Assembly: GCA_017936885.1 (NCBI GenBank)
Contig: JAGBEO010000003.1
Location: 62,001-126,000, forward strand
Direction of reading: 5' to 3'
Length of the DNA: 64,000 bases
Source: Lachnospiraceae bacterium
GTDB taxonomy: Bacteria > Bacillota > Clostridia > Lachnospirales > Lachnospiraceae
The position numbers and the translations under genes are program-made. Shown here piece after piece: positions 45,735-61,573 of this stretch (its first letter is position 1; each line of letters starts with the position of its first letter). Under the pieces are notes generated by a model, which saw only the letters and a program-made list of their open reading frames with translations, had not been told where the DNA came from and ran no database searches.

Positions 45735-47597
45735 ATGTTTGACTTTGACGAAGAACTGAAAAAACTTCCCAATGCACCCGGCGTTTATCTGATGCATGAC
45801 GGCAACGATACGATTATATATGTTGGAAAGGCGGTGAATCTGCATAACCGTGTTCGTTCTTACTTTCGTAAGATCGTAGGCAGAGGCCCGCAGATTGATA
45901 AAATGGTGCAGCAGATCGCCCGGTTTGAATATATTGTGACAGATTCCGAGTTGGAAGCATTGGTGTTAGAGAATAATTTAATCAAAGAATACAGTCCCAA
46001 GTATAATACCATGCTGAAAGACGACAAAACCTATCCCTATATTAAGGTGACGCTGGGAGAAGAATACCCGCGGATTCTTTTTTCCAGAGAAATGAAAAAG
46101 GACCGTTCAAAATATTTCGGACCGTACACCAGTGCGGCGGCAGTGAAGGATACCATTGATCTGATGAATAAACTGTATCAGCTAAAGACCTGCAACAGGA
46201 AGCTTCCCCGGGATATCGGATTGGAGCGTCCTTGTTTGAACTATCATATTAAACAGTGTATGGCGCCTTGCCAGGATTATATCAGCAAGGAAGAGTACCG
46301 GGAACGGATAGAGCAGGCATTGGACTTTCTGAATGGGAATTATAAACCTATCTTAAAAGATCTGGAGCAGAAAATGACCGATGCGGCAAAGAATCTGGAA
46401 TTTGAGGAAGCTGCCCGCTACCGGGATCTATATAATAGTGTGAAAAGTGTGGCACAGAAGCAGAAGATCACGGACAGCGACGGGGAGGATAAAGATATCA
46501 TTGCCCTTTCCAAGGATGAGACAGATGCCGTGGTGCAGGTATTCTTTGTCAGAGGCGGTAAACTGATCGGCAGAGAGCATTTCTATATGACTCATGTGGA
46601 GGGCTATGATACGGCGCAGGTGCTTTTGGATTTTGTGAAACAGTTCTATGCCGGAACCCCTTTTATTCCGAGGGAGCTGATGCTGCAGGAAGAGATTGCG
46701 GATATTGAAGTATTGGAGAAGTGGCTGACGGCGCGCAAGGGCAGCCGCGTTTATATCCGTGTGCCTAAGAAAGGTTCCAAGGAAAAGCTGGTGGAACTGG
46801 CGGCGCAGAATGCTTATCTCGTCCTGAGTCAGGATAAGGAGCGGATGAAACGCGAAGAAGGCAGAACCATCGGTGCGGTCAAGGAGATCGCAGCATTGCT
46901 GGAACTGGATAACATAAGCCGCATGGAAGCTTATGATATTTCGAATATCAGCGGGTTTGCCAACGTAGGTTCCATGGTGGTTTTTGAGAAGGGCAAGGCG
47001 AAGCGCAGCGATTACCGTAAATTCCGTATTCAGTCCGTGTCGGGACCGGATGATTACAGTTGTATGAAGGAAGTGCTGACCAGACGCTTTATGCACGGTA
47101 TGGAGGAGCAAGAGGAGCTGAACCGGAAAGATATCGATCATGAATTCGGCAGCTTTACCAAATTTCCGGATCTGCTTCTGATGGATGGCGGTAAAGGACA
47201 GGTCAACATCGCCTTGCAGGTGTTAGAGGAGCTGCATCTGAATATTCCGGTCTGCGGTATGGTGAAGGATGACAACCATCGTACCAGAGGACTGTATTAT
47301 CATAATGTGGAGATTCCGATCGATACCCATTCGGAAGGCTTTAAGCTGATTACCAGAATTCAGGACGAGGCGCACCGGTTTGCTATTGAATATCACAGAT
47401 CGCTGCGTTCTAAGGCGCAGGTCAAATCCGTGCTGGATGATATACCGGGTGTGGGACCTGCCAGACGCAAGGCGCTGATGAAACATTTCGGTTCCATTCA
47501 GGAGATCAAGGAAGCTTCTGTGGAAAAGCTGAGTGAAGTGCCGGAAATCCCGGAGCATATTGCAGAGCAGATCTATGGGTTCTTTCGTGGAAAATGA
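45735..47597 (+). CDS. uvrC: Excinuclease ABC subunit C
   Basis: 620 residues, the normal length. GIY-YIG nuclease domain ([20 protein letters not shown]), UVR domain ([20 protein letters not shown]), RNase H-like second nuclease ([31 protein letters not shown]) and C-terminal helix-hairpin-helix ([19 protein letters not shown]). It makes both incisions in nucleotide excision repair with UvrA and UvrB. Last ordinary gene before the A+T-rich agr/RiPP block. Confidence 0.95.
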
Positions 47598-47737: not shown

Positions 47738-48460
47738 ATGTACAGAATTGGTATATGTGATGATGATTTTATCTTTTGTGCTCAAATCGAGAAATATCTG
47801 GAAGAGTTTGCGCGAGAGGAAAAGGTAACCATTGATATAGAGGTATTTCTATCGGGAGAAGATTATTTGAAGTATATGGAACAAAAGAGGTCACTAGATA
47901 TTCTTTTTCTTGATATTGAACTCGGAGGAATAGATGGGATATCAGTAGGGCAGAAAATACGTGATGATCTCGCAAACGAGGTGACACAAATCGTATATGT
48001 TTCTTCAAAACAAAACTATGCCATATCTCTATTCCAAATTAGACCGATGGATTTTCTTGTGAAGCCCATAGAGAGAGCGAAAATTAATAGAATTATGCAG
48101 GTATATAGGCGTCTGTTTGATGGGAAGAAAAAATTTTTCGAGTTTCATGTGGGCAGGAGCAATTATAGAGTGGCGACTAATCGCATTATGTATTTCCAAT
48201 GCGAAGGTAAAAAAATACGTATTGTGACAGTTGGTAATGAGAGTAGTGAGTTTTATGAGGCAATGAAAAACATTGAGAAACAGCTTGATATGAGCATATT
48301 TTGTGTCATACATAAGTCATATATTGTGAATGTAAATTATGTATCGGAATTTCATATTGATGAAGTGGTTATGACAACGGGAATTATATTGCCTATCAGC
48401 CAGACGATGAGAAAAAAAGTAAGACAGAAGATTTTGGAACAGAACGTAAATAGCAGATAG
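47738..48460 (+). CDS. agrA: AgrA-like LytTR response regulator
   Basis: 240 residues: receiver with ICDDDFIFC, phospho-acceptor Asp59 in ILFLDIELGG and KPIERAK, then a LytTR DNA-binding domain (FEFHVGRSNYRVATNRIMYF, FCVIHKSYIVNVNYV). AATAGGAGACTAAAG precedes the ATG. First gene of an A+T-rich, one-direction block of eleven or more genes; it should bind direct repeats to activate the agr and RiPP genes, though no clear repeats were found by eye. Confidence 0.88.
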   Translation: MYRIGICDDDFIFCAQIEKYLEEFAREEKVTIDIEVFLSGEDYLKYMEQKRSLDILFLDIELGGIDGISVGQKIRDDLANEVTQIVYVSSKQNYAISLFQIRPMDFLVKPIERAKINRIMQVYRRLFDGKKKFFEFHVGRSNYRVATNRIMYFQCEGKKIRIVTVGNESSEFYEAMKNIEKQLDMSIFCVIHKSYIVNVNYVSEFHIDEVVMTTGIILPISQTMRKKVRQKILEQNVNSR

Positions 48461-48492
48461 GATTAAAATGTGATAAATGAACGGAGACGATT

Positions 48493-49752
48493 ATGGAATA
48501 TTATGAGATAGTGTTTAGTTTGGCATTTAACATCCTAAGCCTGTATGTCAATGTGAGGGTAATAAATTTATTTTTGCCCCGGAAAAAGGAAACCAATAGA
48601 ATTGCCATTCTGATCTACTTCATGGTGTGGATTCTAAATTGGTTGATTTATTATATTTTACAGATACCTTTAATTACTACTTTATCTTTGTTTTTGGGAT
48701 TAATATTTATAGTGCTTATTTTGTATGGTGGCAATGTATGGAAAAAGGCGATTGCTGTTGTAGCATCGTTAGCTCTTACTCTTATCATAGAAGAGATTGT
48801 TTGGAGAGTGTTGTATGTAGGGATCGTTGACATTAAAAGCGATGCGATTGGAAGCTTATGTTCAAGTCTTATAGCATTAGGAATTATTTTTTTCGTTGAA
48901 AGATATATTTGTTTAGAGGGTGACATTCAATTACCAGATAGCAGTTATTTAAATATAGTATCTATGATTGTTGGAAGTATTTTTCTCGAAGAATTGCTTT
49001 CTAATGCTAAAGTGCCTAATCAAATAGCAATGCTTGGATTAAGTATTATATGCTTATTAAATGTTAGTACCTATTTTTTATATGAGAAAGTTATAGATTC
49101 TAATAGAGAGAAGATGCAGATAGTGGTAATGAAACAACAGGTTAAGATGTATGCAAACCAATTGGATGTCGTTAAACAATCACAGCAAAATTTAAGATCA
49201 ATGAGACATGATATGAAAAATCATTTATTGAAAATAAATAGTTATTTACAAAATGGGAAGTATGATGAGGCGGAAGCATATATAGAACAAATGGAAGGCG
49301 AGTTGGAGATAGCAAAAGAATACGTTAGAACGGGGAACTTTGAAATAGATAGTATACTGAATTATAAATTGGGGATTGCAGAGAATTTGGGATGCGTTCT
49401 TAAGATAGAAGTAGATGTTCCGGAACAGAAGTTTATGTCAGACTTTGATTTCACGATTTTATTGGGAAATTTATTAGATAACGGCATAGAAGCTATACAA
49501 AATAGTGAGAAAAAATTTTTAAATATAGGAATTCGTTATATAAAAGGGATTTTGTATGTAGGCATTTATAATTCTTATAATGGAAAATTGAACAAAAGAG
49601 GTGGTAAGTTACAAAGCATTAAGAGGGATAAAAAAAATCATGGGATAGGATTATTTAATATTAAAAATATTGTGAATAAATATGATGGTGAAATATGTAT
49701 AAATTGTTCCGAGAGTGTCTATAAGACGGATATAGTTTTGTATATAAAATAA
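48493..49752 (+). CDS. agrC: AgrC-like sensor histidine kinase
   Basis: 419 residues. Six membrane spans cover about residues 1-205, followed by a coiled linker (MQIVVMKQQVKMYANQLDVV), the H-box LRSMRHDMKNHLLKINSYL with His239, and a GHKL ATPase domain (LLGNLLDNGIEAIQ, GIGLFNIKNIV). This is the layout of AgrC/ComD peptide-pheromone receptors. Its ligand is probably the peptide made by the agrD/agrB genes downstream. A terminator follows. Confidence 0.9.
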   Translation: MEYYEIVFSLAFNILSLYVNVRVINLFLPRKKETNRIAILIYFMVWILNWLIYYILQIPLITTLSLFLGLIFIVLILYGGNVWKKAIAVVASLALTLIIEEIVWRVLYVGIVDIKSDAIGSLCSSLIALGIIFFVERYICLEGDIQLPDSSYLNIVSMIVGSIFLEELLSNAKVPNQIAMLGLSIICLLNVSTYFLYEKVIDSNREKMQIVVMKQQVKMYANQLDVVKQSQQNLRSMRHDMKNHLLKINSYLQNGKYDEAEAYIEQMEGELEIAKEYVRTGNFEIDSILNYKLGIAENLGCVLKIEVDVPEQKFMSDFDFTILLGNLLDNGIEAIQNSEKKFLNIGIRYIKGILYVGIYNSYNGKLNKRGGKLQSIKRDKKNHGIGLFNIKNIVNKYDGEICINCSESVYKTDIVLYIK

Positions 49753-49788
49753 AGAGTTATTTAATTGAAATGTGGAACGGTAGTGCAA

Positions 49789-49824
49789 AGGAGGTGTCAA
49801 AAGAATTGATACCTCTTAATTTTT
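49789..49824 (+). terminator. Terminator between agrC and agrD
   Basis: Arms AGGAGGTGTCAA and TTGATACCTCTT (12 pairs, two G-U), then TAATTTTT. It separates the two-component genes from agrD, so agrD to agrB probably has its own promoter in 49825-49915, or read-through is limited. Confidence 0.75.
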
Positions 49825-49921
49825 CCCTATATATAATAGTTTTTTCCCCGAAAAAAATAATTGCGTATTAATTTGGTATATTTATTAAAAAATATTATAA
49901 GTTTTATGGGAGAAATTACAA

Positions 49922-50074
49922 ATGAGAAATATCTTTTTAAAATTTTCAAAAGTACTATTTAACTTTATTATGGCAATAGCAGTGTTATCGGTAAATGTTA
50001 CCTGTACTAAAAGATTTTATCAAAAGGAATTGGGCAACCAATTAGATGGATTGCGAAAGTATAAGGATGAATAA
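49922..50074 (+). CDS. agrD: AgrD-like cyclic autoinducer peptide precursor
   Basis: 50 residues, easily missed because of its size. MRNIFLKFSKVLFNFIMAIA forms an amphipathic N-terminal helix, VLSVNVTCTKRFYQ contains the only Cys (residue 28), and the C-terminus LGNQLDGLRKYKDE is charged, as in AgrD recognition tails. In known AgrD proteins the Cys side chain closes a thiolactone with the residue four positions later, so a peptide ending C-T-K-R-F is the natural prediction here (inference). GGGAGAAATTACAA precedes the ATG and the stop overlaps agrB. Confidence 0.85.
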   Translation: MRNIFLKFSKVLFNFIMAIAVLSVNVTCTKRFYQKELGNQLDGLRKYKDE

Positions 50075-50627
50075 AGTGCTGGAACTGTTCTCTTCACTGG
50101 GCTATATGGATGAGAACAATTGTGAAATAGTAGTTTATGGATTGCAGAGGGTTAAAAATCTAGCAATAGATATCTTAATTACTATACTGTGTGGACTTGT
50201 TATGAAAAATTTAGTAGTTAGTTTACTTTTTGAGTTGGCGTTTATTTCACTGAGAATATATGCAGGTGGATATCATGCACAAAAAGAAAAAACATGTAGA
50301 ATTATTTCGTTGGTAAGTAGTGTTGGAAGCATAGCAGTAATTATTTATTTGCCAGTTCTATTAATATTACAGAATTTTATGGTAATGATATCTTTGGTAT
50401 GTATTGTCTTTTTTTCACCGGTTGAAAGCAGAAATAAGCCGTTGAGTAATATGGAGAAAAAAGTATTCCGGCGAAGGAGTATTGTTATTGCGTTAATAGA
50501 GGGAGTTGCTTATTTGATTTTAGTTATAAGGGGATTTGAAGTACATTCGAAGGCGATAGGTATTGCGGTATTGATAATTGCGATTGGATTACTGTTGGAA
50601 AAAGGGAAAGGCAAATGTGTATTTTGA
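50046..50627 (+). CDS. agrB: AgrB-like accessory gene regulator protease
   Basis: 193 residues with about five or six spans. The catalytic pair is visible in RIYAGGYHAQKEKTC: His77 and Cys84 when numbered from the ATG at 50046, the same numbers as in Staphylococcus aureus AgrB. It cleaves the AgrD tail and forms the thiolactone. An alternative start at ATG 50067, which overlaps the agrD stop, is possible. Gene order agrA, agrC, agrD, agrB differs from the staphylococcal BDCA order. Confidence 0.9.
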   Translation: MDCESIRMNKVLELFSSLGYMDENNCEIVVYGLQRVKNLAIDILITILCGLVMKNLVVSLLFELAFISLRIYAGGYHAQKEKTCRIISLVSSVGSIAVIIYLPVLLILQNFMVMISLVCIVFFSPVESRNKPLSNMEKKVFRRRSIVIALIEGVAYLILVIRGFEVHSKAIGIAVLIIAIGLLLEKGKGKCVF

Positions 50628-50695
50628 TTTAGAATAATGTAAGTGAGGCTATCTGAAAGAATTTCAAATATATGATAGAGAAGGAGATTGGGAGA

Positions 50696-52858
50696 ATGGA
50701 AGAATATATAATGGGTAATCAATTAGAGCCATGGAAGGGAGGGATAGCGCAAACCATCACATTTGTGATAACACAAGACTGTAACCTCAGATGTAAATAT
50801 TGTTATATGACAGACAAGAATAAAAACAGTGTTATGTCCATGGAGATTGGAGAAAAAGCAATAGATTATTTTTTGACAAACAGTGATGTATTTATTTCAG
50901 ACGCTGTGATATTAGAATTTATTGGTGGAGAACCATTGTTGGAAATTGATCTTATTGATCGTATAACTGATTATTTTAAGTTAAGGGCATATCAATTAAA
51001 CCATAAATGGTTTACAATGTATAGAATTAGTATATCGACAAATGGATTATTATATTCCACGGAAAAAGTTCAAAAGTTTATTAAAAAGAATTTAAAAAAG
51101 TTGTCGATAGGTATTTCAATAGATGGAACAAAAGAGAAAAATGATACACAAAGAGTTTATCCAGATGGGAGAGGTAGTTATGATGATGTTGTGAAAAATA
51201 TTGAGTTGTGGCAAAGTCAATTTCCAGGAGCGTCAACGAAAGTAACTATAGGACATGATGATTTACCATATGTAAAGGAAAGTATTATTCATTTGTGGAA
51301 CTTAGGATTAAGAGAAATACCAGCAAATGTGGTTTTTGAAGATGTATGGAAAGAAGGAGATGATATAATCTTTTACAACCAGTTAAAAGAATTAGCTGAT
51401 TATATCGTAGATAATGATATGTGGAAAGATTATAACACTTCTTTATTTAGTCAGGGAATAGGAGCTCCCTTAAATGAAGAGGAATTGAATAAAAATTCAT
51501 GTGGAACAGGTTCGATGATTGCTGTAGATGCAAAAGGGAACTTTTATCCGTGTGTAAGATTCATGGATTATTCACTAAATAGACAGCAGAGTTATATTAC
51601 AGGAAATATAGAAGATGGAATTAATAGAGACAAAGTTAGGCCATTCTATGTTTTAACAACTAAAAATCAAAGTGATAATGAATGCCTTACGTGTAGTATT
51701 GCATCAGGATGTCAATGGTGTACAGGCTACAATTATGATCAGTCAGAAAATGGCACATTATTTTCAAGGGATAAATCTATATGTAAAATGCACAAAGCAA
51801 GAGTAAAGGCAAATAATTATTTGTGGTATAGGCTTACAAGAGAACGAGGAGTGAAGTTAAAAAGAAATAGAGGGTCAGATAAATATTTATTTATTATGTT
51901 AGCAGACAATAGTGTTTCCTTTTGCAATTATGAAGCTAGTGCGGAAAATAATATTAGCCTTGCAGAAGAATATCTTACACAAGCAGCAAAGGACTGTTTT
52001 GAGAATTTTATTACTCCTGTAATTTTGCATTCAAATAATAAGACGTTATCTGTTAGGGCTAACGAAATATTTAAAGGATTGGATTATATAAACATATACA
52101 CACACGATAATATTGATGTGTATTCTGATAAAGATATTATATACCATGACAGTAGTACTATATATACGGAAACGACTCCCAAAGTGTGCTGTATATTAAA
52201 AGTAGATGAAAGTGAACTGCAAAACTTAAGTAATTATGTTTCAAAGGCACTTGAATTTTTTGATAGGGTAAATATTAATTTAATATATAATTTACAGACA
52301 TTCGACATTAATTTGTATCAAAGGCAATTGCATGAAATAGCAGATAGGTTGTTTGAGTATTATAAGAATGGCAATGTAAAACAAGTGAATGCCATAACTG
52401 ATGAACTTTTAGGTGTAAATAGAAGAAATTGTAATTTTGGATATAAGAATTTCGTCTTAGCTCCAAATGGAAAAATCTATAGCTGCCCAGCAATGTATTA
52501 TGATAAAAAGGAAAGTTATTTGACCGATTTAAAGGGATTAGCAACCAATAGTTTTCTTGGTTCTCAAAAATTTAATTTGTACAATAACGCAGTCTGTAAA
52601 CAATGTAACATTTTACATTGTAATTGGTGTTTTTATTTAAGTAAACAGTCCACGGGGGAATTCAGTGTTCCATCTTCAAAACAATGCCAAATTGCACAAA
52701 TAGAAAAAGGAGTAACAGCATATTTGTTTAACTTGTTGCAAGAAAATGATATCAAAGATTTTTATATGAATAAAATTGAAAATACAGAATTTGAGGATCC
52801 GATTCTGAGTAGAAAAACATATTCCACGTCTTTGATGAATTTTTCTTATAAAGTTTAG
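50696..52858 (+). CDS. Radical SAM/SPASM CXXX-repeat peptide maturase, apparently fused to a second maturase domain
   Basis: About 720 residues from ATG 50696 (AAGGAGATTGGGAGA upstream). Radical-SAM motif C29-x3-C33-x2-C36 in TQDCNLRCKYCYM; first SPASM-type set with SCGTGSMIAVDAKGNFYPC and CLTCSIASGCQWCTGYNYD. From about residue 394 a second module starts DKYLFIMLADNSVSFCNYEA, resembling the separate protein usually called CXXX repeat peptide maturase, and ends with another Cys set, LAPNGKIYSCPAMYY and CKQCNILHCNWC. It should install thioether or related crosslinks on the Cys-rich peptides just downstream. The family assignment rests on recalled motifs, not on a search. Confidence 0.87.
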   Translation: MEEYIMGNQLEPWKGGIAQTITFVITQDCNLRCKYCYMTDKNKNSVMSMEIGEKAIDYFLTNSDVFISDAVILEFIGGEPLLEIDLIDRITDYFKLRAYQLNHKWFTMYRISISTNGLLYSTEKVQKFIKKNLKKLSIGISIDGTKEKNDTQRVYPDGRGSYDDVVKNIELWQSQFPGASTKVTIGHDDLPYVKESIIHLWNLGLREIPANVVFEDVWKEGDDIIFYNQLKELADYIVDNDMWKDYNTSLFSQGIGAPLNEEELNKNSCGTGSMIAVDAKGNFYPCVRFMDYSLNRQQSYITGNIEDGINRDKVRPFYVLTTKNQSDNECLTCSIASGCQWCTGYNYDQSENGTLFSRDKSICKMHKARVKANNYLWYRLTRERGVKLKRNRGSDKYLFIMLADNSVSFCNYEASAENNISLAEEYLTQAAKDCFENFITPVILHSNNKTLSVRANEIFKGLDYINIYTHDNIDVYSDKDIIYHDSSTIYTETTPKVCCILKVDESELQNLSNYVSKALEFFDRVNINLIYNLQTFDINLYQRQLHEIADRLFEYYKNGNVKQVNAITDELLGVNRRNCNFGYKNFVLAPNGKIYSCPAMYYDKKESYLTDLKGLATNSFLGSQKFNLYNNAVCKQCNILHCNWCFYLSKQSTGEFSVPSSKQCQIAQIEKGVTAYLFNLLQENDIKDFYMNKIENTEFEDPILSRKTYSTSLMNFSYKV

Positions 52859-52884
52859 TGAGTGAATCAATGGAGGAAAAGAAT

Positions 52885-53175
52885 ATGAAAAACTTTAAAA
52901 TTAAATTGTTAAAAGAAGAAGTTGATGAAATTGAATTATATTTCGAAAGGATGAATTCGCTAAAAGATTTGGTTTTAGTTTTTGAATCGGATGAAGTTTT
53001 TATTCGGAATTCATCTATGATGTATGAAAAAATAGTAAAGGACTTGACTGATACCCGGACGAAATTTCAATTGTGGTGGACAAAAATAATAGATAAATAT
53101 AATTTGCAAGAATATAACCAAGATCAATTATTTGTTGATTTTTTGGATAGAGCAATCAAACTTCATGTTCAGTAA
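52885..53175 (+). CDS. CXXX-repeat peptide modification system accessory protein
   Basis: 96 residues, starting at ATG 52885 (MKNFKIKLLKEEVDEIELYF) with GGAGG 10 bases upstream. Charged and helical, no Cys and no membrane segment. Small proteins of this type accompany the CXXX radical-SAM maturases; a role as precursor-binding chaperone or leader-recognition partner is an inference. It lies between the maturase and the precursor genes. Confidence 0.7.
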   Translation: MKNFKIKLLKEEVDEIELYFERMNSLKDLVLVFESDEVFIRNSSMMYEKIVKDLTDTRTKFQLWWTKIIDKYNLQEYNQDQLFVDFLDRAIKLHVQ

Positions 53176-53210
53176 TTAAATTATATATGTAAGGAGAGGA
53201 GGTGTTTGCT

Positions 53211-53372
53211 ATGCTGTTAGAGTATCAGAATCTTAAAGTAACTCAAAGAAGTGGGGTGGAGCGAGGTATTTGTTTTGGGTGTGAAAATGAGTGTTTTTTA
53301 AGGTGCACAAACGAGTGTGTTGGAGCATGTAAAAATAGCTGTGCAGGGGCAGCTTATATAATTAAGGAATAG
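53211..53372 (+). CDS. CXXX-repeat precursor peptide 1
   Basis: 53 residues. Begins MLLEYQ, has a 20-residue Cys-free N-terminal part, then Cys at 21, 24, 28, 32, 36, 40 and 44, i.e. one CxxC step followed by five exact four-residue steps, and a short tail AYIIKE. AGGAGAGGAGGTG gives a very strong ribosome-binding site. No double-glycine or other leader cleavage motif is seen. Substrate of the radical-SAM maturase by context. Confidence 0.88.
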   Translation: MLLEYQNLKVTQRSGVERGICFGCENECFLRCTNECVGACKNSCAGAAYIIKE

Positions 53373-53384
53373 GGGGGAAGATGT

Positions 53385-53546
53385 ATGTTGTTGGAGTATC
53401 AATCTAGTGCTGGTGGAACATCAGGGCTGGCAAGAATATGTTATAGCTGTGAGAGTATTTGTTGGTTGCAATGCCAAGGGTGTAGTGGTTGCAAAGGATG
53501 TTCTGATGCATGTACAGCTAAGTGCGGATCAGTAAGCAAGAGTTAA
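53385..53546 (+). CDS. CXXX-repeat precursor peptide 2
   Basis: 53 residues. MLLEYQSSAG at the start, Cys at 19, 22, 26, 30, 33, 36, 39, 43 and 47. The central run CQGCSGCKGC has three-residue steps, unlike peptide 1. ATG 53385 is chosen over 53381 because only it gives the conserved MLLEY opening; GGGGGGAAG lies upstream. Confidence 0.86.
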   Translation: MLLEYQSSAGGTSGLARICYSCESICWLQCQGCSGCKGCSDACTAKCGSVSKS

Positions 53547-53557
53547 GGAGGTATACT

Positions 53558-53713
53558 ATGTATTTGGAATTTCAAAAATCATTTGCACAGATGAATATTA
53601 GTAACGCAAGTATTTGCGTGGGATGTGAAAATATTTGTTTTCTTAAATGTTCAGAATCTTGTACCAGTATATGTATGGCCGGATGTTCTGGAGGAGCCAA
53701 AAGAGTTTCCTAG
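53558..53713 (+). CDS. CXXX-repeat precursor peptide 3
   Basis: 51 residues. MYLEFQKSF opening, Cys at 20, 23, 27, 31, 35, 39 and 43, the same all-four-residue pattern as peptide 1, then a GGAKRVS tail. AAGGAGGTATACT precedes the ATG; an in-frame upstream codon at 53522 lies inside peptide 2 and is rejected. Confidence 0.88.
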   Translation: MYLEFQKSFAQMNISNASICVGCENICFLKCSESCTSICMAGCSGGAKRVS

Positions 53714-53724
53714 GAGGGATTAAA

Positions 53725-53871
53725 ATGTTATTAGAATACAATGTTGACGTTCAAAGTAATGGAATTACACCGCGTATATGTATAGGCTGCGAAAGTGTTT
53801 GCGTTTTTAGATGTCATGCATGTAGTGGTTGTAGCGGATGTCAAAATACATGCACAGCTAAGGCTAAATAA
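53725..53871 (+). CDS. CXXX-repeat precursor peptide 4
   Basis: 48 residues. MLLEYNVDV opening, Cys at 19, 22, 26, 30, 33, 36, 39 and 43, the mixed pattern of peptide 2 (CHACSGCSGC), and a CTAKAK tail. GGAGGG precedes the ATG. Last precursor before a hairpin and the transport genes. Confidence 0.88.
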   Translation: MLLEYNVDVQSNGITPRICIGCESVCVFRCHACSGCSGCQNTCTAKAK

Positions 53872-53895
53872 TGTCATATATTACTAGCGGAGATT

Positions 53896-53937
53896 ATTCC
53901 TGACCGATTAGAAATTGATTGGTCAGGAATAGCTTTT
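53896..53937 (+). terminator. Hairpin between precursor genes and transporter genes
   Basis: Perfect ten-base arms ATTCCTGACC and GGTCAGGAAT (53896-53930), then AGCTTTTA. The T-tract is short, so it may act as a partial terminator or as a 3-prime stabiliser that keeps precursor mRNA in excess over transporter mRNA. Confidence 0.6.
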
Positions 53938-53949
53938 ATGGGGATAGAA

Positions 53950-56418
53950 ATGTTTAGATTAATTAATTTAAGAAGTATAAGAGACAATTTATTTATTGTT
54001 ATCTTTGTTTTGCTTGGATGTGTTATTTCGACTTCATTATTGGCAGCAACAATCTTTATTCTTGATGATATTGATAGTTATGTAAATAATTCATCCAGAT
54101 TATTAAATCACGGAGATATGTCTATAACTCAGGATAATATATGGTTTGGGGATTCAACATATAAAAAAAACAATAGAGAATTAGATAATTATTTGCTTGG
54201 ATGTACAGATATAGATTATACATTTGAGCAAATATTAATGCCGGATTCGAGTGCTAAACTGTGGAGTAATAGTGATAATATTATATTAGGAAGTTCCTAT
54301 TGGTATAGATTTGTGGATTTTAATGATATGAACAGGTATGCCGATTGTGACAGTACAGAGACTGTGAAAGAGACAGTTATTATTAGTGAGAGTATGGCTA
54401 AGAGACTTTCGGCAGAAGTTGGAGACAAATTAAATATTGACTTTAATATTAACACACCAATATTATCTATGCCTATATCAGCTATTATTCCAGATAATGA
54501 GATAAACATTAAAAAAGCATATTTGGGATACATTATGATAGATTTATCCACTTACAAACAATGGCTGATTGATAGTGTTGGGGTGAATCCGGAACAGGAT
54601 TTCGAGAATTCGTGGATTAAGAGATATTACATAGATTCAGAGAACACAGTATCGCTACAAGAAATTGAGAAAGAGGCTGTCAATATATACGGAAAAAATT
54701 TAAAGATAGTATATGCCAATGATTTGTCTGGGCAGGCAAGAGTTTATTTCGGATTTCTTATCATTTTCTTTTCCTGTTTTACTATTGTGTGTTTTGTTTT
54801 TTCAGGCATAGGTCTTTTTAATTTATGTCATATAAGAATTCTGAATAGACAAAACGATATTGCAATTCTAAAAATTAACGGTTTGAGTAACGCTAGAAAT
54901 ATTACGTATATTTTACTAGAAATGATAGTGCTGGTTTTGCCTGCTTATGTTGTTGGAATTAGTATAGGATATGGGCTCTTTCGGTTGATCTTGTCCCATA
55001 CATCTATTTTAGGGAGTAATAGTTTATCTGCAATAGCAATTTTTCTGGCAGTCTGTAAAATTATATGTTTAAATTTGATTTCAGTATTGCTTATCTGTAT
55101 TCCAATTGTAGTGTATGGAGATAAAAGAAAAATTACAGATATATTACGGGATAATTCATCAAGTTATTATTTGAAAAGTAACGTTTTACTGGCAACTTTC
55201 TGTTCGAGCATATTGATTTTGACGCTGTTTAGCATCACATTAAATTCGGAAGAATTAAACGATATATTATCTAAAATATTTATTATTGCCATAGGCATTT
55301 TAATATTAATTGTCGGTGTAAAAAAATTACTACTAATATTTAAAATAAAATCATATTTTCGTGTGGGTTTAAACTTTATATGCAAAGATAAAATAAGAAT
55401 ACCTTTGACAATCATGACATACGCGTTTTGCTTCTGCATGGTGTATCTTTTAATTTTGGCAAACTTTTCTTTGAATGCGCTTGCATCAGATGCTTCTATT
55501 AGTCAATTTGATTATAATGTGGAAGTTGAAGTCACAAATCAAGGACGGGATAGGTTTGCAGATTATATTAATAATCAGATAAGCATTAATCATTACTATG
55601 TTGTAAACGCGTATGCAATAGATTTTGAAGATTTGCATGTAGAATTTGATGTCTATGATTTTGATAACTATGAAGGTAATATGTCACAAAAAATAGGAAA
55701 GAATGTGGCAGTTTCAAATTACATTAAAAGCCAATGTAAAATTAGAGAAGAAGATACGATAAATGTTTTATTGCGTCAGGATTCCGATTGCTTATCTTTT
55801 GGTGTGTGCTCGGAAGATTACATAGCACCTTTTCCAGGTGGACCGAGAGTAGCAATGGCGGTTTCAAAGGGCGCGGTATCGGATTTGCCGGAAGAGGCAG
55901 AGGTAATTGCATATTTTTTTTATATAAATGGTACGGAAGAAAAGAACTTGAGGGAGTATGCAAGAGAAACAGAGGAAATAAGAGTGATTAGTGCCGAAGA
56001 TATTATTGAAAGCAAACTTAGCGAAATCATGGATTATAGATATATGTTTAAACTTATGACAGTCTATTTTTTTGTGTGTACTATTACAGTTACATTGTCC
56101 AGCAGTGTTGTGACTTATATAAATCGTCAGAAAGAGTTTTATATTTATTATTATTTGGGGGCTTCAAAAAAGAAAGTAAGGAACATAATATATTATGAGA
56201 ATATGGTGATTATTTTGATTGGAATTTTATTTGGAATTATTATATCCAATTTTTCTTTGGAATACGTTTCAACAATTTTTGAATTGGAATTACATTCTGA
56301 TTATAGATTATTTACAGTACTATTATTTCTGTTTTTAATCATGCCTTTTATAATCACTAAGTTGGTAATTAAGATGATTTTTTCAAAATCTGCCGGAGAA
56401 TTGTTAAAGGATGATTAA
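53950..56418 (+). CDS. FtsX-like ABC transporter permease (MacB type)
   Basis: About 822 residues, starting MFRLINLRSIRDNLF with GGGATAG upstream; an ATG at 53938 is less likely. It has one N-terminal span, a large external domain of about 230 residues, three spans near 270-400 and more near 480-520, a second external domain, and three C-terminal spans: the two-unit FtsX layout in one chain. It should pair with the LolD/MacB-type ATPase at 58169. Export or extraction of the modified peptide is the likely job; self-immunity is another possibility. Confidence 0.8.
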   Translation: MFRLINLRSIRDNLFIVIFVLLGCVISTSLLAATIFILDDIDSYVNNSSRLLNHGDMSITQDNIWFGDSTYKKNNRELDNYLLGCTDIDYTFEQILMPDSSAKLWSNSDNIILGSSYWYRFVDFNDMNRYADCDSTETVKETVIISESMAKRLSAEVGDKLNIDFNINTPILSMPISAIIPDNEINIKKAYLGYIMIDLSTYKQWLIDSVGVNPEQDFENSWIKRYYIDSENTVSLQEIEKEAVNIYGKNLKIVYANDLSGQARVYFGFLIIFFSCFTIVCFVFSGIGLFNLCHIRILNRQNDIAILKINGLSNARNITYILLEMIVLVLPAYVVGISIGYGLFRLILSHTSILGSNSLSAIAIFLAVCKIICLNLISVLLICIPIVVYGDKRKITDILRDNSSSYYLKSNVLLATFCSSILILTLFSITLNSEELNDILSKIFIIAIGILILIVGVKKLLLIFKIKSYFRVGLNFICKDKIRIPLTIMTYAFCFCMVYLLILANFSLNALASDASISQFDYNVEVEVTNQGRDRFADYINNQISINHYYVVNAYAIDFEDLHVEFDVYDFDNYEGNMSQKIGKNVAVSNYIKSQCKIREEDTINVLLRQDSDCLSFGVCSEDYIAPFPGGPRVAMAVSKGAVSDLPEEAEVIAYFFYINGTEEKNLREYARETEEIRVISAEDIIESKLSEIMDYRYMFKLMTVYFFVCTITVTLSSSVVTYINRQKEFYIYYYLGASKKKVRNIIYYENMVIILIGILFGIIISNFSLEYVSTIFELELHSDYRLFTVLLFLFLIMPFIITKLVIKMIFSKSAGELLKDD

Positions 56419-56438
56419 GTTAGAGGAACAGAAAATAT

Positions 56439-58172
56439 ATGGTTAAGAAATTGAAGTGTCTGACAAAGTATTTTGGGTTGTTAATTAAGAACTATATTCT
56501 TTTGTTTATCTTTTTGGTTCTATTATCAGTAATTTCAAAAATTATACTTCTAATTCCTCCGTTTATTAACGGAGAAATAATTGATTTTGTGATTACAGCC
56601 GAATTTAGCAGGATTGTTTACCTAATATTTCTGTCTTTAATAATTTTATTATTGGAGGCGTTTTTCAGTTTGCTACAGACTTATTTGGGTATATACTTGT
56701 CTAATCATACATTAATAGATATAAAAGAAAAATTATTTAGGAAAATTATATATTTGCGAATGGATGAATATGATAAAAAAAGATCCGGTGAATATTTGTC
56801 AAGACTTGAAGGGGATGCGGAGACAGTAAGTTCATTTTATATCAAGACAATTCCTAATATGTTACTTAACATTATTACAATGATTGTAACAGGCTTTTTT
56901 TCGGTTTATTTATCTCCATTATTAACATTCGTTGGACTAATAAGTTTTCCAATTTCACTAATGATTAACTATTTATTCGGTAAAAAGGTGAGAACATCCT
57001 TTTTGGAGGTAAGAAAGGCAACAGATGATTATAGCAGTGTATCACAACAAATAATAATTGCAGAAAGAGCTGTAAAGAGATTACATATTGAATGTTCTGT
57101 TCTGGAGTACTTTACTGAAAAGGTAAGTATATTAACTAAAACCAGTATAAAAAGTGGCATGATATCAGCGTATGGTGGACTTTTACAAATGATAACATCA
57201 ACGATACTTGAATTATTAATTATGTCACTAGCGTGTTATTCAATCATTAAAGGGAATTTGTCTATAGGATCCTATGTAGCATTTAATGTTTACTTGGCAC
57301 AGTTTTTAACATCTATAAGGGAAATGGCATCAATGAATTTAGATATTCAAGCAGTGTTGATTTCAATGGCGCGTATTGATGAGATCATGACTAGTATACA
57401 AGAACAACTGATAGAATCTGATAAGACATGTCATTTACAAGGAGATATTATAATTGATAATGTTGAATTTTCATATAAAGAAAATTTGAAAGTATTAGAT
57501 AAGGTGAATCTAAAATTTGATAGTAATACCATTACGGCTATTGTCGGAACAAGTGGATGTGGAAAAACAACATTATTAAACTTAGTAATGGGCATATATG
57601 AACCCCAAAGAGGAAAAATATTTATAAGTGGTCAAGAAATAGGAACATTAAGATTGCATGATCTAAGGAGTAATATTTCATATGTCCAACAAGATCCTTT
57701 TTTTATATCTGATACAATAAGAAACAACTTATTATTGGCTAATCAGACCGCTACAGATAAAGAAATAGAGGAAGCCTGTAAAATGGCACATATTTATGAA
57801 ATGATTATGAGTTTACCACAAGGATTTGAAACAGTTATAGAAGAGCAGGGAAATAATTTTTCCAGTGGACAAAAGCAGAGGTTAGCAATTGCTAGAGGGA
57901 TTCTTAAAAAAGCGAAAATATTCTTGTTTGATGAAATAACATCGGATTTAGATGGGGAAACGGAAAAGTATATTTTGAAAACTCTATTTTGGTTATCAAA
58001 AGAGCATACTGTTATTATAGTGGCGCATAGGATAACAACTGTGGAAAATATTCCTAGAATTATAGTTTTTGACAAGGGCAGAAACGTTCAAGAGGGGAAA
58101 CATCAGGAATTGCTTGATCATTGTAAAGAATATCAAAAATTATTTAAAAACACGGAGGAGATTAGAACTTGA
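56439..58172 (+). CDS. ABC exporter (membrane domain fused to ATPase)
   Basis: 577 residues. Six membrane spans in the first 300 residues, then an ATPase with Walker A GTSGCGKTTL, signature FSSGQKQRLAIARG and Walker B LFDEITSDLDG. It has no N-terminal C39 peptidase domain, so it cannot cut a leader itself. Role by context: export of the Cys-rich products, or of the autoinducer. Confidence 0.87.
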   Translation: MVKKLKCLTKYFGLLIKNYILLFIFLVLLSVISKIILLIPPFINGEIIDFVITAEFSRIVYLIFLSLIILLLEAFFSLLQTYLGIYLSNHTLIDIKEKLFRKIIYLRMDEYDKKRSGEYLSRLEGDAETVSSFYIKTIPNMLLNIITMIVTGFFSVYLSPLLTFVGLISFPISLMINYLFGKKVRTSFLEVRKATDDYSSVSQQIIIAERAVKRLHIECSVLEYFTEKVSILTKTSIKSGMISAYGGLLQMITSTILELLIMSLACYSIIKGNLSIGSYVAFNVYLAQFLTSIREMASMNLDIQAVLISMARIDEIMTSIQEQLIESDKTCHLQGDIIIDNVEFSYKENLKVLDKVNLKFDSNTITAIVGTSGCGKTTLLNLVMGIYEPQRGKIFISGQEIGTLRLHDLRSNISYVQQDPFFISDTIRNNLLLANQTATDKEIEEACKMAHIYEMIMSLPQGFETVIEEQGNNFSSGQKQRLAIARGILKKAKIFLFDEITSDLDGETEKYILKTLFWLSKEHTVIIVAHRITTVENIPRIIVFDKGRNVQEGKHQELLDHCKEYQKLFKNTEEIRT

Positions 58173-58840
58173 TTTCAGCAGATAAGATTACTAAAAAGAT
58201 AAAAAATGGTACAGAGTATCTAACAATTCTCAATGACATAACGTTAGAAATCCATAAGTCAGAGTTTGTGTCTATTTGTGGTAAAAGCGGATCTGGTAAA
58301 AGTACATTATTATCTATTTTAGCCGGAATCGATAAACCTACTGCTGGAACAGTGCTGATTGATGGTGTAGATATATATTCTTTAACAGAAAAAGAACTGG
58401 CGGAATTTAGAAATCAAAATATTGGAATTGTATTTCAAAAATTTAATCTTATATCGTCTCTTACTGCTATAGAAAATGTTCAAGTTCCGCAGTATTTAGC
58501 TAAAAGGGGTAAAAAGAGTAATCAGAGTGCTAAAAACATTTTAAAATATTTAGGTCTGGAAGATAAATGTGGAATAAAAATAGGAAAATTATCGGGTGGA
58601 GAGCAGCAAAGAGTCGCAATTGCGCGAGCGTTGATTCAGAATCCTAAAATAATATTTGCTGATGAGCCGACTGGCTCGCTTGACTGTGCTAATAGCAGAT
58701 TAATAATTGATTTACTGAAAAAAATACAGAGAGAAGTAAATACTACAATAGTTTTAGTGACACATGACATGAGTATAGCACAAATAACTGATAGGGTGAT
58801 CGATATTGATTATTTAGCAAAAAAATCTTTAGATTTATGA
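58169..58840 (+). CDS. ABC transporter ATPase (LolD/MacB type)
   Basis: 223 residues with Walker A GKSGSGKST, signature LSGGEQQRVAIARAL and Walker B IIFADEPTGSLD. Starts with TTG at 58169, set by CGGAGGAG eight bases upstream; the start overlaps the stop of the exporter gene (TTGA). It lacks membrane spans and is the expected partner of the FtsX-like permease at 53950. Last gene of the A+T-rich block. Confidence 0.88.
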   Translation: MISADKITKKIKNGTEYLTILNDITLEIHKSEFVSICGKSGSGKSTLLSILAGIDKPTAGTVLIDGVDIYSLTEKELAEFRNQNIGIVFQKFNLISSLTAIENVQVPQYLAKRGKKSNQSAKNILKYLGLEDKCGIKIGKLSGGEQQRVAIARALIQNPKIIFADEPTGSLDCANSRLIIDLLKKIQREVNTTIVLVTHDMSIAQITDRVIDIDYLAKKSLDL

Positions 58841-59149: not shown

Positions 59150-61573
59150 ATGAAATACGGACATTTTGACACGGAGCATAGGGAATATGTAATTGACCGG
59201 GTGGATCTGCCCTGCTCTTGGACAAATTATCTGGGAGTAGAAGACATGGCGGCAGTAGTGAACCACACGGCGGGCGGCTATCTGTTCTACAAAACACCGG
59301 AGTATCACAGAATCAGCCGGTTCCGGGGTAACAGTGTACCCATGGACAGACCGGGTTTCTATGTATATCTCAGGGATAATGACAGCATTCCCACAGATTA
59401 CTGGTCGATTTCCTGGCAGCCGGTGGGCAAACCGCTTACGGAAGCGAAATACGGCTGCCGTCACGGCATGTCTTATACTGTGTACACTTGCGATTATCAG
59501 GATATTCAGGCGTCACAGACGATGGTAATTCCGCGTGGGGAAGCGGTACAGCTTTGGGATGTGAAAGTGAAAAATACGGGAGATCATACCAGACATTTGA
59601 GTCTGTTTTCTTATCTGGAATTTTCTTTCCATCATATTATGATCGACAATCAGAATTACCAGATGAGCCTTTATTGTGCGGGAACCTCTTATGAAGACGG
59701 CATTATTGAGGAAGACTTATTCTACGAGCAGGAGGGGTATCAGTATTTTACCGCAAGTTTTGAGCCGGACGGGTTTGATTGTATGCGGGATACCTTTTTA
59801 GGAGCCTATCATACGGAGTCAGATCCGGCAGCAGTGATTGCAGGCAAATCCAGTTCTTCCTATGAGAAAGGCGGCAACCACTGTGGCAGCCTGCAGAAAG
59901 ATATTACCTTAGAACCGGGTGAAGAAATCCGTGTAGTTTTCATGCTGGGTGAAGGCAGACGGGCAGAAGGCAGACGAATCCGGGAGAAATATTCCGACCT
60001 GTCGGCAGTGGATGCGGCGTACGAGGATTTAAAACGGTTTTGGGAAAATAAATGTCAGAAATTGCAGATTCAGACGCCGAATGAAGGAATGAATGAGTTA
60101 ATCAATACATGGACGCTCTATCAGTCGGAAATCAATGTTATGTTTTCACGTTTTGCTTCTTTTATAGAAGTGGGCGGCAGAGTCGGATTAGGCTATCGGG
60201 ATACGGCACAGGATGCCATGACGATTCCGCATTCCAATCCGGAAAAATGCAAAGAACGTATAGAGCAGTTGTTAAAGGGATTGACGACAGAAGGATATGG
60301 TCTGCATCTGTTTCAACCGGAATGGTTTGAGGAAAAGAGCGGCGCTGCGCCTTTTAAATCCCCCACAGTGATTCCGGAACCGGATAAAAACAGTATCATA
60401 CACGGTTTAAAAGATGCCTGCTCTGATGACGCACTCTGGCTGGTGGCGGCAGTGGTGGAGTACATTAAGGAAACCGGCGATTTCTCCTTTGCCCGGCAGC
60501 AGCTTCCTTATGCGGATACCTTCATTGCAGGAGATAAAAGTACAGAAACGGTTTATGAACATTTAAAAAGAATTTTGGATTTTTCTGCAAAACAGGTCGG
60601 TGCAAGCGGAATCTGTAAAGGTCTGCGGGCAGATTGGAATGACTGTCTCAATCTGGGAGGCGGTGAGAGCGCCATGGTAAGCTTTTTACATTACTGGGCA
60701 CTGAACCTTTTCATAGAACTGGCAGAGTATCTTGGATATCAGGAGGATGTAGACCATTATCGTGAGATTGCAAAGAGGATAAAAACGGTATGCAATGAAA
60801 AGCTTTGGGACGGCAAATGGTTTATCCGGGGTATTACCGGAAAAGGTAAGAAAATCGGCTGTCAGGCGGATGCCGAAGGTAAGGTGCATCTGGAGTCTAA
60901 TGCATGGGCGATCTTATCCGGTGCGGCGGAGGATGAAAAGGCAGATATGGCACTGGAAGCGATCGACAGCTATTTGTATACCCCTTATGGACTCTTGTTA
61001 AATACGCCTTCTTATACGGTGCCGGATGATGATATCGGATTTGTCACAAGAGTGTATCCGGGATTGAAAGAAAACGGCGCTGTCTTTTCCCATCCGAATC
61101 CATGGGCATGGGCTGCCGCATGTAAAAGGGGCAGGGGCGATCTGGCAATGAAGTTTTATGATGCGCTCTGTCCTTACTGGCAGAATGATAAGATTGAGAT
61201 CCGGGAATCGGAGCCGTATTCCTATTGCCAGTTTATTGCGGGCAAGGATCACAGCGCTTTCGGAAGAGCAAGACATCCGTTTATGACAGGTTCCGGCGGC
61301 TGGTCTTATTTCTCGGCAACCAGATATATGCTTGGCATCCGCCCGGATTTTGAACAGCTTACCATAGACCCTTGTATCCCGGCTGAATGGAAGGAATTCA
61401 GGGTAAGCCGTATCTGGCGCGGCGCTGAATATGATATCAGGGTAAGCAATCCGGACGGGGTGATGAAAGGCGTAAAAGCAATCATCATAGATGGTAAAAA
61501 AGTATCTAAGATTCCGGTTATGGAAGCAGGCAGCAAACATATGGTGGAAGTTATCATGGGAAAGGAAGGGTGA
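59150..61573 (+). CDS. GH94 glycoside phosphorylase
   Basis: 807 residues, the length of cellobiose/chitobiose phosphorylases. Family marks: MKYGHFDTEHREYVI, SVPMDRPGFYVYLRD, EVGGRVGLGYRDTAQD, the general-acid region GLRADWNDCLNLGGGES (Asp495 or Asp498) and RHPFMTGSGGWSYFSATRYM at the phosphate site. It splits a beta-linked disaccharide with phosphate to release a sugar 1-phosphate. Cellobiose and N,N-diacetylchitobiose are both possible; I cannot decide between them by eye. The gene ends in an overlap with a phosphohexomutase, which would process that product. Confidence 0.9.
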   Translation: MKYGHFDTEHREYVIDRVDLPCSWTNYLGVEDMAAVVNHTAGGYLFYKTPEYHRISRFRGNSVPMDRPGFYVYLRDNDSIPTDYWSISWQPVGKPLTEAKYGCRHGMSYTVYTCDYQDIQASQTMVIPRGEAVQLWDVKVKNTGDHTRHLSLFSYLEFSFHHIMIDNQNYQMSLYCAGTSYEDGIIEEDLFYEQEGYQYFTASFEPDGFDCMRDTFLGAYHTESDPAAVIAGKSSSSYEKGGNHCGSLQKDITLEPGEEIRVVFMLGEGRRAEGRRIREKYSDLSAVDAAYEDLKRFWENKCQKLQIQTPNEGMNELINTWTLYQSEINVMFSRFASFIEVGGRVGLGYRDTAQDAMTIPHSNPEKCKERIEQLLKGLTTEGYGLHLFQPEWFEEKSGAAPFKSPTVIPEPDKNSIIHGLKDACSDDALWLVAAVVEYIKETGDFSFARQQLPYADTFIAGDKSTETVYEHLKRILDFSAKQVGASGICKGLRADWNDCLNLGGGESAMVSFLHYWALNLFIELAEYLGYQEDVDHYREIAKRIKTVCNEKLWDGKWFIRGITGKGKKIGCQADAEGKVHLESNAWAILSGAAEDEKADMALEAIDSYLYTPYGLLLNTPSYTVPDDDIGFVTRVYPGLKENGAVFSHPNPWAWAAACKRGRGDLAMKFYDALCPYWQNDKIEIRESEPYSYCQFIAGKDHSAFGRARHPFMTGSGGWSYFSATRYMLGIRPDFEQLTIDPCIPAEWKEFRVSRIWRGAEYDIRVSNPDGVMKGVKAIIIDGKKVSKIPVMEAGSKHMVEVIMGKEG

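Follow-up and report, generated by a model that had tools for sequence, protein, structure and literature searches.

A quorum-sensing agr module joined to a CXXX-repeat radical-SAM peptide cluster in a Lachnospiraceae genome

The present locus raises the question of whether a quorum-sensing system of the agr type could be joined so closely to a peptide-modifying gene cluster that both the signal and the product would come from the same transcript. The locus lies in what we term the window, i.e., the whole 64,000-nucleotide stretch that was analyzed (positions 62,001 to 126,000 of contig JAGBEO010000003.1 from a Lachnospiraceae bacterium, assembly GCA_017936885.1). In it, uvrC (45735-47597) and a GH94 phosphorylase gene (59150-61573) flank a block of 13 open genes (47738-58840), all on the + strand, in the order agrA, agrC, agrD, agrB, a two-domain CXXX-repeat radical S-adenosylmethionine (radical-SAM) maturase gene, an accessory protein gene, four precursor peptide genes, and three ATP-binding cassette (ABC) genes. 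The gene map and domain searches, the latter performed against Pfam and NCBIfam with curated cut-offs, confirm the genes, strand, and order named in the original prediction, which had been made from the sequence alone. The block is real and intact, and it is probably a functional quorum-linked cluster for ribosomally synthesized and post-translationally modified peptides (RiPPs). We consider it reasonably probable that the block operates as an autoinduced peptide-factory operon, in which the signal and the peptides would be encoded on one mRNA and the peptides would be crosslinked and exported.

Some of the evidence for such an operon is found in the gap between agrC and agrD. In both the window and genome G063, this gap contains TTTTTCCC or TTTTTCC twice at a 21-bp pitch, followed ~25 nt further on by TGnTAT in the same register. 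These elements are conserved between the two even though their agr proteins are only 39-56% identical (regulator 56%, kinase 45%, AgrD 48%, AgrB 39%). In a shuffle test of both sequences, designed once the repeat was known and with the word length (8) and pitch (20-22) fixed, 0 of 2000 shuffles were as good, the observed summed mismatch score being 2 and that of the best shuffle 6. AgrA-type LytTR regulators recognize tandem sites spaced by about two turns of the DNA helix. As 49820-49848 is the sole site in the window with ≤2 mismatches, control of the peptides would rest upon read-through from it, and no terminator-like site was found in the 44-nt gap between agrB and the maturase gene. The shared box before agrD and this gap without a detected terminator support, on anatomical grounds, a cell-density control of the peptides. 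The original prediction had held that the modified peptides are made only at high cell density, which is supported as far as the anatomy goes.

In the proposed mechanism, AgrB would cut and cyclize AgrD to yield a thiolactone signal, which AgrC would sense and thereby activate AgrA. AgrA would then bind the tandem box and fire the promoter before agrD, of which a possible extended -10 may form part, although this element is not among the sites listed by the promoter scan. The agrD transcript would continue through agrB into the maturase, accessory, and four precursor genes, and signal and product would therefore arise from one mRNA, while partial read-through of the hairpin at 53894-53932 would extend expression into the transporter genes. 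The maturase would crosslink the Cys residues of the four peptides, probably through thioether links, and the ABC proteins would export the peptides and may provide immunity. AgrA binding, co-transcription, the chemistry, and export are all predicted steps, and the most likely biological role of the products would be inhibition of close competitors.

None of the Pfam or NCBIfam models matches AgrD of the agr module at E 0.01, and it is identified by where it lies, by the overlap with agrB, and by a counterpart in G063. By analogy, its ring is presumably CTKRF, and H77 and C84 of AgrB are the residues that we take to be catalytic. Like known agr systems (AgrBDCA), the module combines AgrB, a GHKL kinase, a LytTR regulator, a putative small Cys propeptide overlapping agrB, and a candidate tandem box before agrD, whereas it differs from them in its A-C-D-B order and in the RiPP genes behind agrB. 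In Staphylococcus, the agr effector is a separate RNAIII transcript. G063 encodes an orthologous agr set arranged identically; behind it lie an ABC transporter gene (PF00005) and then opposite-strand genes, with no maturase. The G063 assembly, which is 67% complete, contains no TIGR04115 match above cut-off. Since this agr set is found with no maturase behind it and there are CXXX loci that lack an adjoining agr, the window locus looks to be a locally assembled join of two modules. The window's genome also encodes a second AgrB (G000:C10:157410-157919, locus L241) of a lineage common to G023 and G024, with the radical-SAM motif absent within 8 kb.

The second module shares several features with known CXXX-repeat systems: both parts of the maturase and the accessory protein score above their cut-offs, the Cys spacing is similar, and the exporter and LolD-type ATPase resemble those of G162 and G675. 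The maturase carries CNLRCKYC at residue 37 and unites TIGR04115 and TIGR04119 in one frame; such a frame, of ~690-730 aa, is present in the window as well as in 8 of 22 other Clostridia stretches. Among Bacteroidota loci holding both parts, these are mostly separate genes; separate genes are found in most Bacteroidota of loci L003-L067 and the single frame in Clostridia loci L002, L051, L145, L151, L152, L154, and L160-L163. Against the PapB-type ranthipeptide model NF047865, the maturase scores 214 bits, below the cut-off of 340. Because of this resemblance to PapB-type enzymes, albeit below cut-off, ranthipeptide-like thioether links from Cys would be the likeliest product of the predicted crosslinking.

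Neighboring Cys are 2 or 3 residues apart throughout all four precursors, which have M-x-L-E and seven invariant Cys in common and whose Cys spacing alternates as A-B-A-B. The top protein scores pair precursor 1 with 3 (106) and 2 with 4 (134), and by DNA score precursor 1 is closest to 4; an A-B pair was likely doubled. The window differs from known CXXX-repeat systems in its junction with agr and in these four short precursors, whose best scores are all below the model cut-offs (TIGR04118, 21.2 bits of 35; TIGR04117, 16.4 of 50; TIGR04114, 15.0 of 20) and some of which have no match. The CXXX maturases of G162 and G675 have an exporter and a LolD-type ATPase (45-48% identical) as neighbors and, because both recur, these two transport proteins presumably belong with the CXXX module. 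The accessory protein was undetected in G162, and the FtsX permease has no relative by sequence among the CXXX loci. No leader protease gene was seen in the block, and the library search found no peptidase domain in the exporter. The features of the block are collected in Table 1.

Table 1. Genes and putative control elements of the block (positions within the window)
Feature	Position	Strand	Basis
agrA-like LytTR response regulator	47738..48460	+	PF04397 59 bits, PF00072 (Response_reg) 54 bits
agrC-like GHKL sensor kinase	48493..49752	+	PF14501 (HATPase_c_5) 70 bits; RHDMKNH box at residue 238
Terminator-like hairpin 3' of agrC	49789..49817	+	fold -15.6 kcal/mol, z -4.2
Tandem direct repeat TTTTTCCC, 21-bp pitch, proposed AgrA-type box	49820..49848	+	common to window and G063
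Possible extended -10 (TGGTATATT), putative agrD promoter	49874..49882	+	TGnTAT columns same in G063
agrD-like propeptide, 50 aa	49922..50074	+	position, 29-nt overlap with agrB, G063 counterpart
agrB	50046..50627	+	PF04647 106 bits (cut-off 23); H77 and C84 present
CXXX-repeat radical-SAM/SPASM maturase	50672..52858	+	TIGR04115 540 bits (cut-off 350), TIGR04119 197 bits (150), single frame
CXXX modification-system accessory protein	52858..53175	+	TIGR04116 73 bits (cut-off 50)
Precursor 1, type A, 7 Cys	53211..53372	+	shared motif and Cys spacing
Precursor 2, type B, 9 Cys	53385..53546	+	shared motif and Cys spacing
Precursor 3, type A, 7 Cys	53558..53713	+	shared motif and Cys spacing
Precursor 4, type B, 8 Cys	53725..53871	+	shared motif and Cys spacing
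Strong hairpin with T-rich tail, terminator or attenuator, between precursors and transporters	53894..53932	+	fold -25.3 kcal/mol, z -6.3
FtsX-type ABC permease, 826 aa	53938..56418	+	PF02687 63 bits
ABC exporter, membrane and ATPase domains	56439..58172	+	PF00664 134 bits, PF00005 108 bits
LolD-type ABC ATPase	58169..58840	+	PF00005 125 bits; TIGR02211 235 bits, below cut-off 308

The base composition of the block sets it apart from its surroundings. G+C is 0.27-0.35 in the eight longer block genes vs. 0.47-0.50 in uvrC, ftsH, the GH94 gene, and a mutase gene, with third-position values of 0.21-0.35 in the block and 0.49-0.56 in flanking genes; the accessory and precursor stretch has 0.35 and agrD-agrB 0.32, and G+C climbs at both edges of the block. 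The counts by which the block was initially called A+T-rich (16 of 60 G+C at 51001-51060 and 29 of 60 at 44341-44400 in ftsH) were both exact upon recount. This low G+C, together with the occurrence of a CXXX maturase above cut-off in just 1 of 77 genomes of the genus, supports a foreign origin of the block. The earlier proposal that it was acquired as a unit thus finds support as regards its foreign source, whereas its unity is unproven, each module occurring elsewhere without the other. We considered and rejected a mobile element that carries its own recombinase: the matches listed for the block proteins include no recombinase, the 64-kb window contains no tRNA, and the two block-edge stretches tested share no exact word of 8-20 bases.

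The position of the block behind uvrC is itself informative. In 9 of 14 maps from sister genomes, the genes that we take to be hprK, a ROK kinase gene, murB, rapZ, and whiA, in whole or in part, follow on the 3' side of uvrC, either directly or after an insert; the remaining five maps stop earlier or have long inserts behind uvrC. In the window's own genome, the same series, with 86-95% identity to the G024 proteins, starts at 69,211 in window numbering, 21.6 kb past uvrC. Since the hprK series follows uvrC directly or past inserts in the sisters, the uvrC-hprK interval evidently takes up insertions. Inserts such as those at L178, L179, L180, L184, L195, L199, L203-L205, and L219 mark it as an insertion hotspot of the genus, containing other agr lineages, ATPase-like genes, repeated small lipoprotein-like genes and, in G029, very long repeated frames.

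uvrC was present in 72 of the 77 genus genomes, and its downstream side was covered in 59 of the other 71, a figure that includes one locus on the wrong side (L231) and one 1.7-kb stub (L214). AgrB gave 88 matches in 52 of the 77 genomes, and in nine of these (G000, which is the window's genome, G012, G013, G014, G016, G018, G029, G046, and G052) AgrB lies 2-3 kb past uvrC. Had AgrB been evenly spread, ~0.15 would be expected in such 6-kb stretches (estimated as 88 x 6 kb / 3.5 Mb, with the caveat that the nine do not represent independent cases). In the AgrB tree, the nine form three lineages, the window grouping with G063 (support 100/98), three others with G006 and G070, and five with G031, and two further AgrB lineages thus appear to have reached the uvrC-hprK interval in sister species. 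A single old agr locus inherited at uvrC was rejected, given that the window's AgrB groups with that of G063 and not with the other uvrC-linked AgrB; the AgrB of G063 itself was not seen beside uvrC, none having been detected in that assembly. Because of long branches, this rejection is less than certain.

CXXX maturases above cut-off were found in 8 of 397 genomes sampled from the family, 8 of 392 from the order, 5 of 391 from the class, and 1 of 398 from the phylum; these samples overlap, and each count includes the window's genome, which is the sole match in the last. We examined CXXX neighborhoods in 22 stretches from 18 other genomes. Among these genomes and the window's own, AgrB lies next to the maturase in the window only, eight of the 19 having no AgrB match at all; AgrB is ~9 kb from the maturase in G101 and on the same contig at 24 kb in G675 and 38 kb in G234. 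The co-occurrence of agr and CXXX maturases in other genomes, upon which the original prediction had been staked, was therefore not observed in the loci searched, except for G101, in which the maturase match is below cut-off and split by a 400-aa frame. At L149 and L150 (G234 and G101) the maturase is broken alike by this frame, leaving a first piece of 56 aa; judging by its start, the frame is presumably an IS110-type transposase. At L147 (G425, a genome without an AgrB match), a regulator and a GHKL-type kinase like those of the window (39 and 78 bits) are encoded 5.6 kb upstream of the maturase.

A search of plasmids matched three records, one of which, the Anaerococcus prevotii plasmid NC_013164, matched across most of the query. 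On this plasmid, typed as conjugative, the CXXX maturase adjoins a class III lanthipeptide cluster and further radical-SAM genes (L236, L237), and the two stretches inspected contain no agr-annotated gene. Phage records yielded 79 matches; among the best 20 of the 79, one unannotated 6.8-kb record had 92% query coverage at 43% identity, and the remaining rows 49-61%. A scan for viral contigs yielded no match.

The agr-CXXX join is unique among the loci searched, yet its underlying principle is not new. In two sisters, agr lies beside a different radical-SAM RiPP system, in one case (G019) with a half-length AgrB match. In the other, G054, the 46 kb around agr contain nine pairs of TTTTCTGCAA at a 20-bp pitch (≤3 mismatches): agrA, agrB, and two CcpM operons are each preceded by one pair, and the other five are located elsewhere. 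These operons encode CcpM maturases (TIGR04068, 568 and 543 bits, cut-off 500) with CLI_3235-type precursors. As controls, 40 shuffles gave 0 pairs at pitch 20, and other pitches from 10 to 39 gave 0-4 each. The word was derived from the G054 boxes themselves; 8 of its 11 pairs in 3.77 Mb of other loci fall within four other agr loci. It precedes agrA and agrB in G029 and G027 and lies behind agrB in G009, and G047 has it both behind agrB and ~640 nt ahead of agrA. A different word, also at a 20-bp pitch, is common to the five uvrC-linked agr of the G016 group and is located at the agrC end; the uvrC-linked agr of G012, G014, and G029 contain no such repeat in the stretch tested. The G054 island is a candidate agr regulon. 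Like the window, it has agr followed by radical-SAM operons for Cys-rich peptides on the same strand and tandem boxes, whereas its maturase family (TIGR04068), AgrB lineage, and box word are different. The region G054:C9:80001-126000 (L280, L244, L281) holds, along with the nine boxes, two AgrB, an extra regulator-kinase pair, and three TIGR04068 matches, two of them above cut-off.

Across the genus, CcpM gave 10 matches in 6 of 77 genomes, 7 of them above cut-off, and 4 have an AgrB match no more than 10 kb away, where 0.11 would be expected; three of these pairings are from one island, two are below cut-off, and the fourth is G019. In G019 (L279, contig C33), the CcpM/CLI_3235 cluster immediately precedes the genes for an agr-type regulator and kinase and is possibly part of a decayed agr-RiPP pair. 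The radical-SAM motif was found within 8 kb of AgrB in 5 of 57 loci (G054, G019, and three on the opposite strand); these 57 loci represent 58 of the 88 AgrB matches, with the window and the eight other uvrC-linked matches in addition and 21 outside the survey. At L251, L252, and L293, radical-SAM genes on the opposite strand are located 1.5-5.3 kb upstream of AgrB.

Several results weigh against a single autoinduced operon. Within the window, no good box precedes the maturase, precursors, or transporters, and, with ≤3 mismatches allowed, pitch 21 yields no more occurrences of the word than pitch 22 or 23 (8 each). In the whole genome, 21 hits at ≤1 mismatch compare with 11 for the reversed pattern, which defines no regulon, and the promoter scan found no excess of sites (71 vs. 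67.6 in shuffles). A profile built from 60 genus AgrB found no AgrB in 89 other CXXX loci (86 distinct), comprising the 22 stretches and L001-L067; three pairs of these share a contig, flanks are short in some, and L068-L070 were excluded as weak partial matches. As this profile was untried on AgrB from outside the genus, misses are possible, and the AgrB of G101 lies mostly beyond its stretch. Lastly, G019 has agr beside CcpM, but with the shortened AgrB match, and a search there for boxes of the G054 word found none. The word-pair counts led us to reject a wider agr regulon in the window's own genome, there being two perfect pairs, 49820-49848 and one within a coding frame.

Among the alternative explanations, the most serious is that agr and the CXXX genes entered the uvrC-hprK hotspot separately and are chance neighbors, with agr controlling other genes and the peptides being regulated independently. 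Such a history would fit an interval that gathers varied inserts, two other AgrB lineages included, as well as the ABC transporter gene in place of a maturase behind the G063 agr and the lack of AgrB in the 89 loci. We nonetheless consider it rather unlikely, as separate arrivals would hardly predict genes on one strand throughout, a 44-nt agrB-maturase gap with no detected terminator, low G+C across the whole block, a box before agrD in common with G063, or the boxes of G054 that precede agr and RiPP operons alike.

Two other scenarios are far less plausible. The radical-SAM peptides could be the true signal sensed by AgrC, with AgrBD merely accessory, an idea lent some weight by SCIFF-derived ranthipeptides, which reportedly take part in clostridial quorum sensing (work by Chen in 2020, known through its citations). 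Given that AgrD and AgrB appear intact and that G063 keeps the orthologous kinase, regulator, AgrD, and AgrB together with no maturase behind them, we regard this as highly improbable. Equally improbable would be a decaying foreign island devoid of function. Its foreign composition and rarity within the genus are what such an island would exhibit, whereas its 13 open frames, the presence of the motifs checked, and the seven invariant Cys kept in all four precursors are not, especially in contrast to the interrupted maturases of G101 and G234. An autoinduced operon therefore remains our preferred interpretation.

Related arrangements have been described. According to portions of PMC10301443, agr controls the expression of an adjacent LanM-like gene, CA_C0082, in Clostridium, and agr also occurs inside lanthipeptide gene clusters, e.g., in C. 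hungatei. The CA_C0082 system likewise places a RiPP-enzyme-like gene beside agr, although in the same portions its LanM-like protein is described as lacking catalytic residues, whereas the window encodes a radical-SAM maturase with its own precursors. Excerpts of PMC13361665 describe Rgg/SHP quorum sensing as driving streptococcal radical-SAM RiPP operons (RaS-RiPPs); there, a cytoplasmic Rgg and an imported SHP take the place of the membrane kinase and cyclic signal predicted for the window. The term agr is absent from the text of PMC13361665, and CXXX from both it and PMC8326336. Ranthipeptides are mentioned with quorum sensing or autoinducers in passages of PMC8326336, PMC8748961, PMC13289728, and PMC11352710. 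Among the matches listed in the open-access literature, there was no publication on CXXX-repeat peptides or on agr with them. The original statement that no characterized product of this combination is known agrees with that literature, where neither a product nor a trigger of a CXXX-repeat system was found.

More broadly, agr in this genus might be a portable cassette, each lineage having its own box (20- or 21-bp pitch) and capturing radical-SAM modules for Cys-rich peptides, with the window as the case in which a CXXX module came to lie inside the autoinduced agrDB transcript and signal and antibiotic became one message. We advance this only tentatively, as something short of an even prospect. 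In any case, the window locus is valuable as a test case, not as a system of a new kind. If agr does drive the cluster, then it should be inducible by a short synthetic thiolactone, and the product, its chemistry, and its activity would become directly testable. Furthermore, the box words offer a simple computational handle on the operons that may belong to each agr lineage in the genus.

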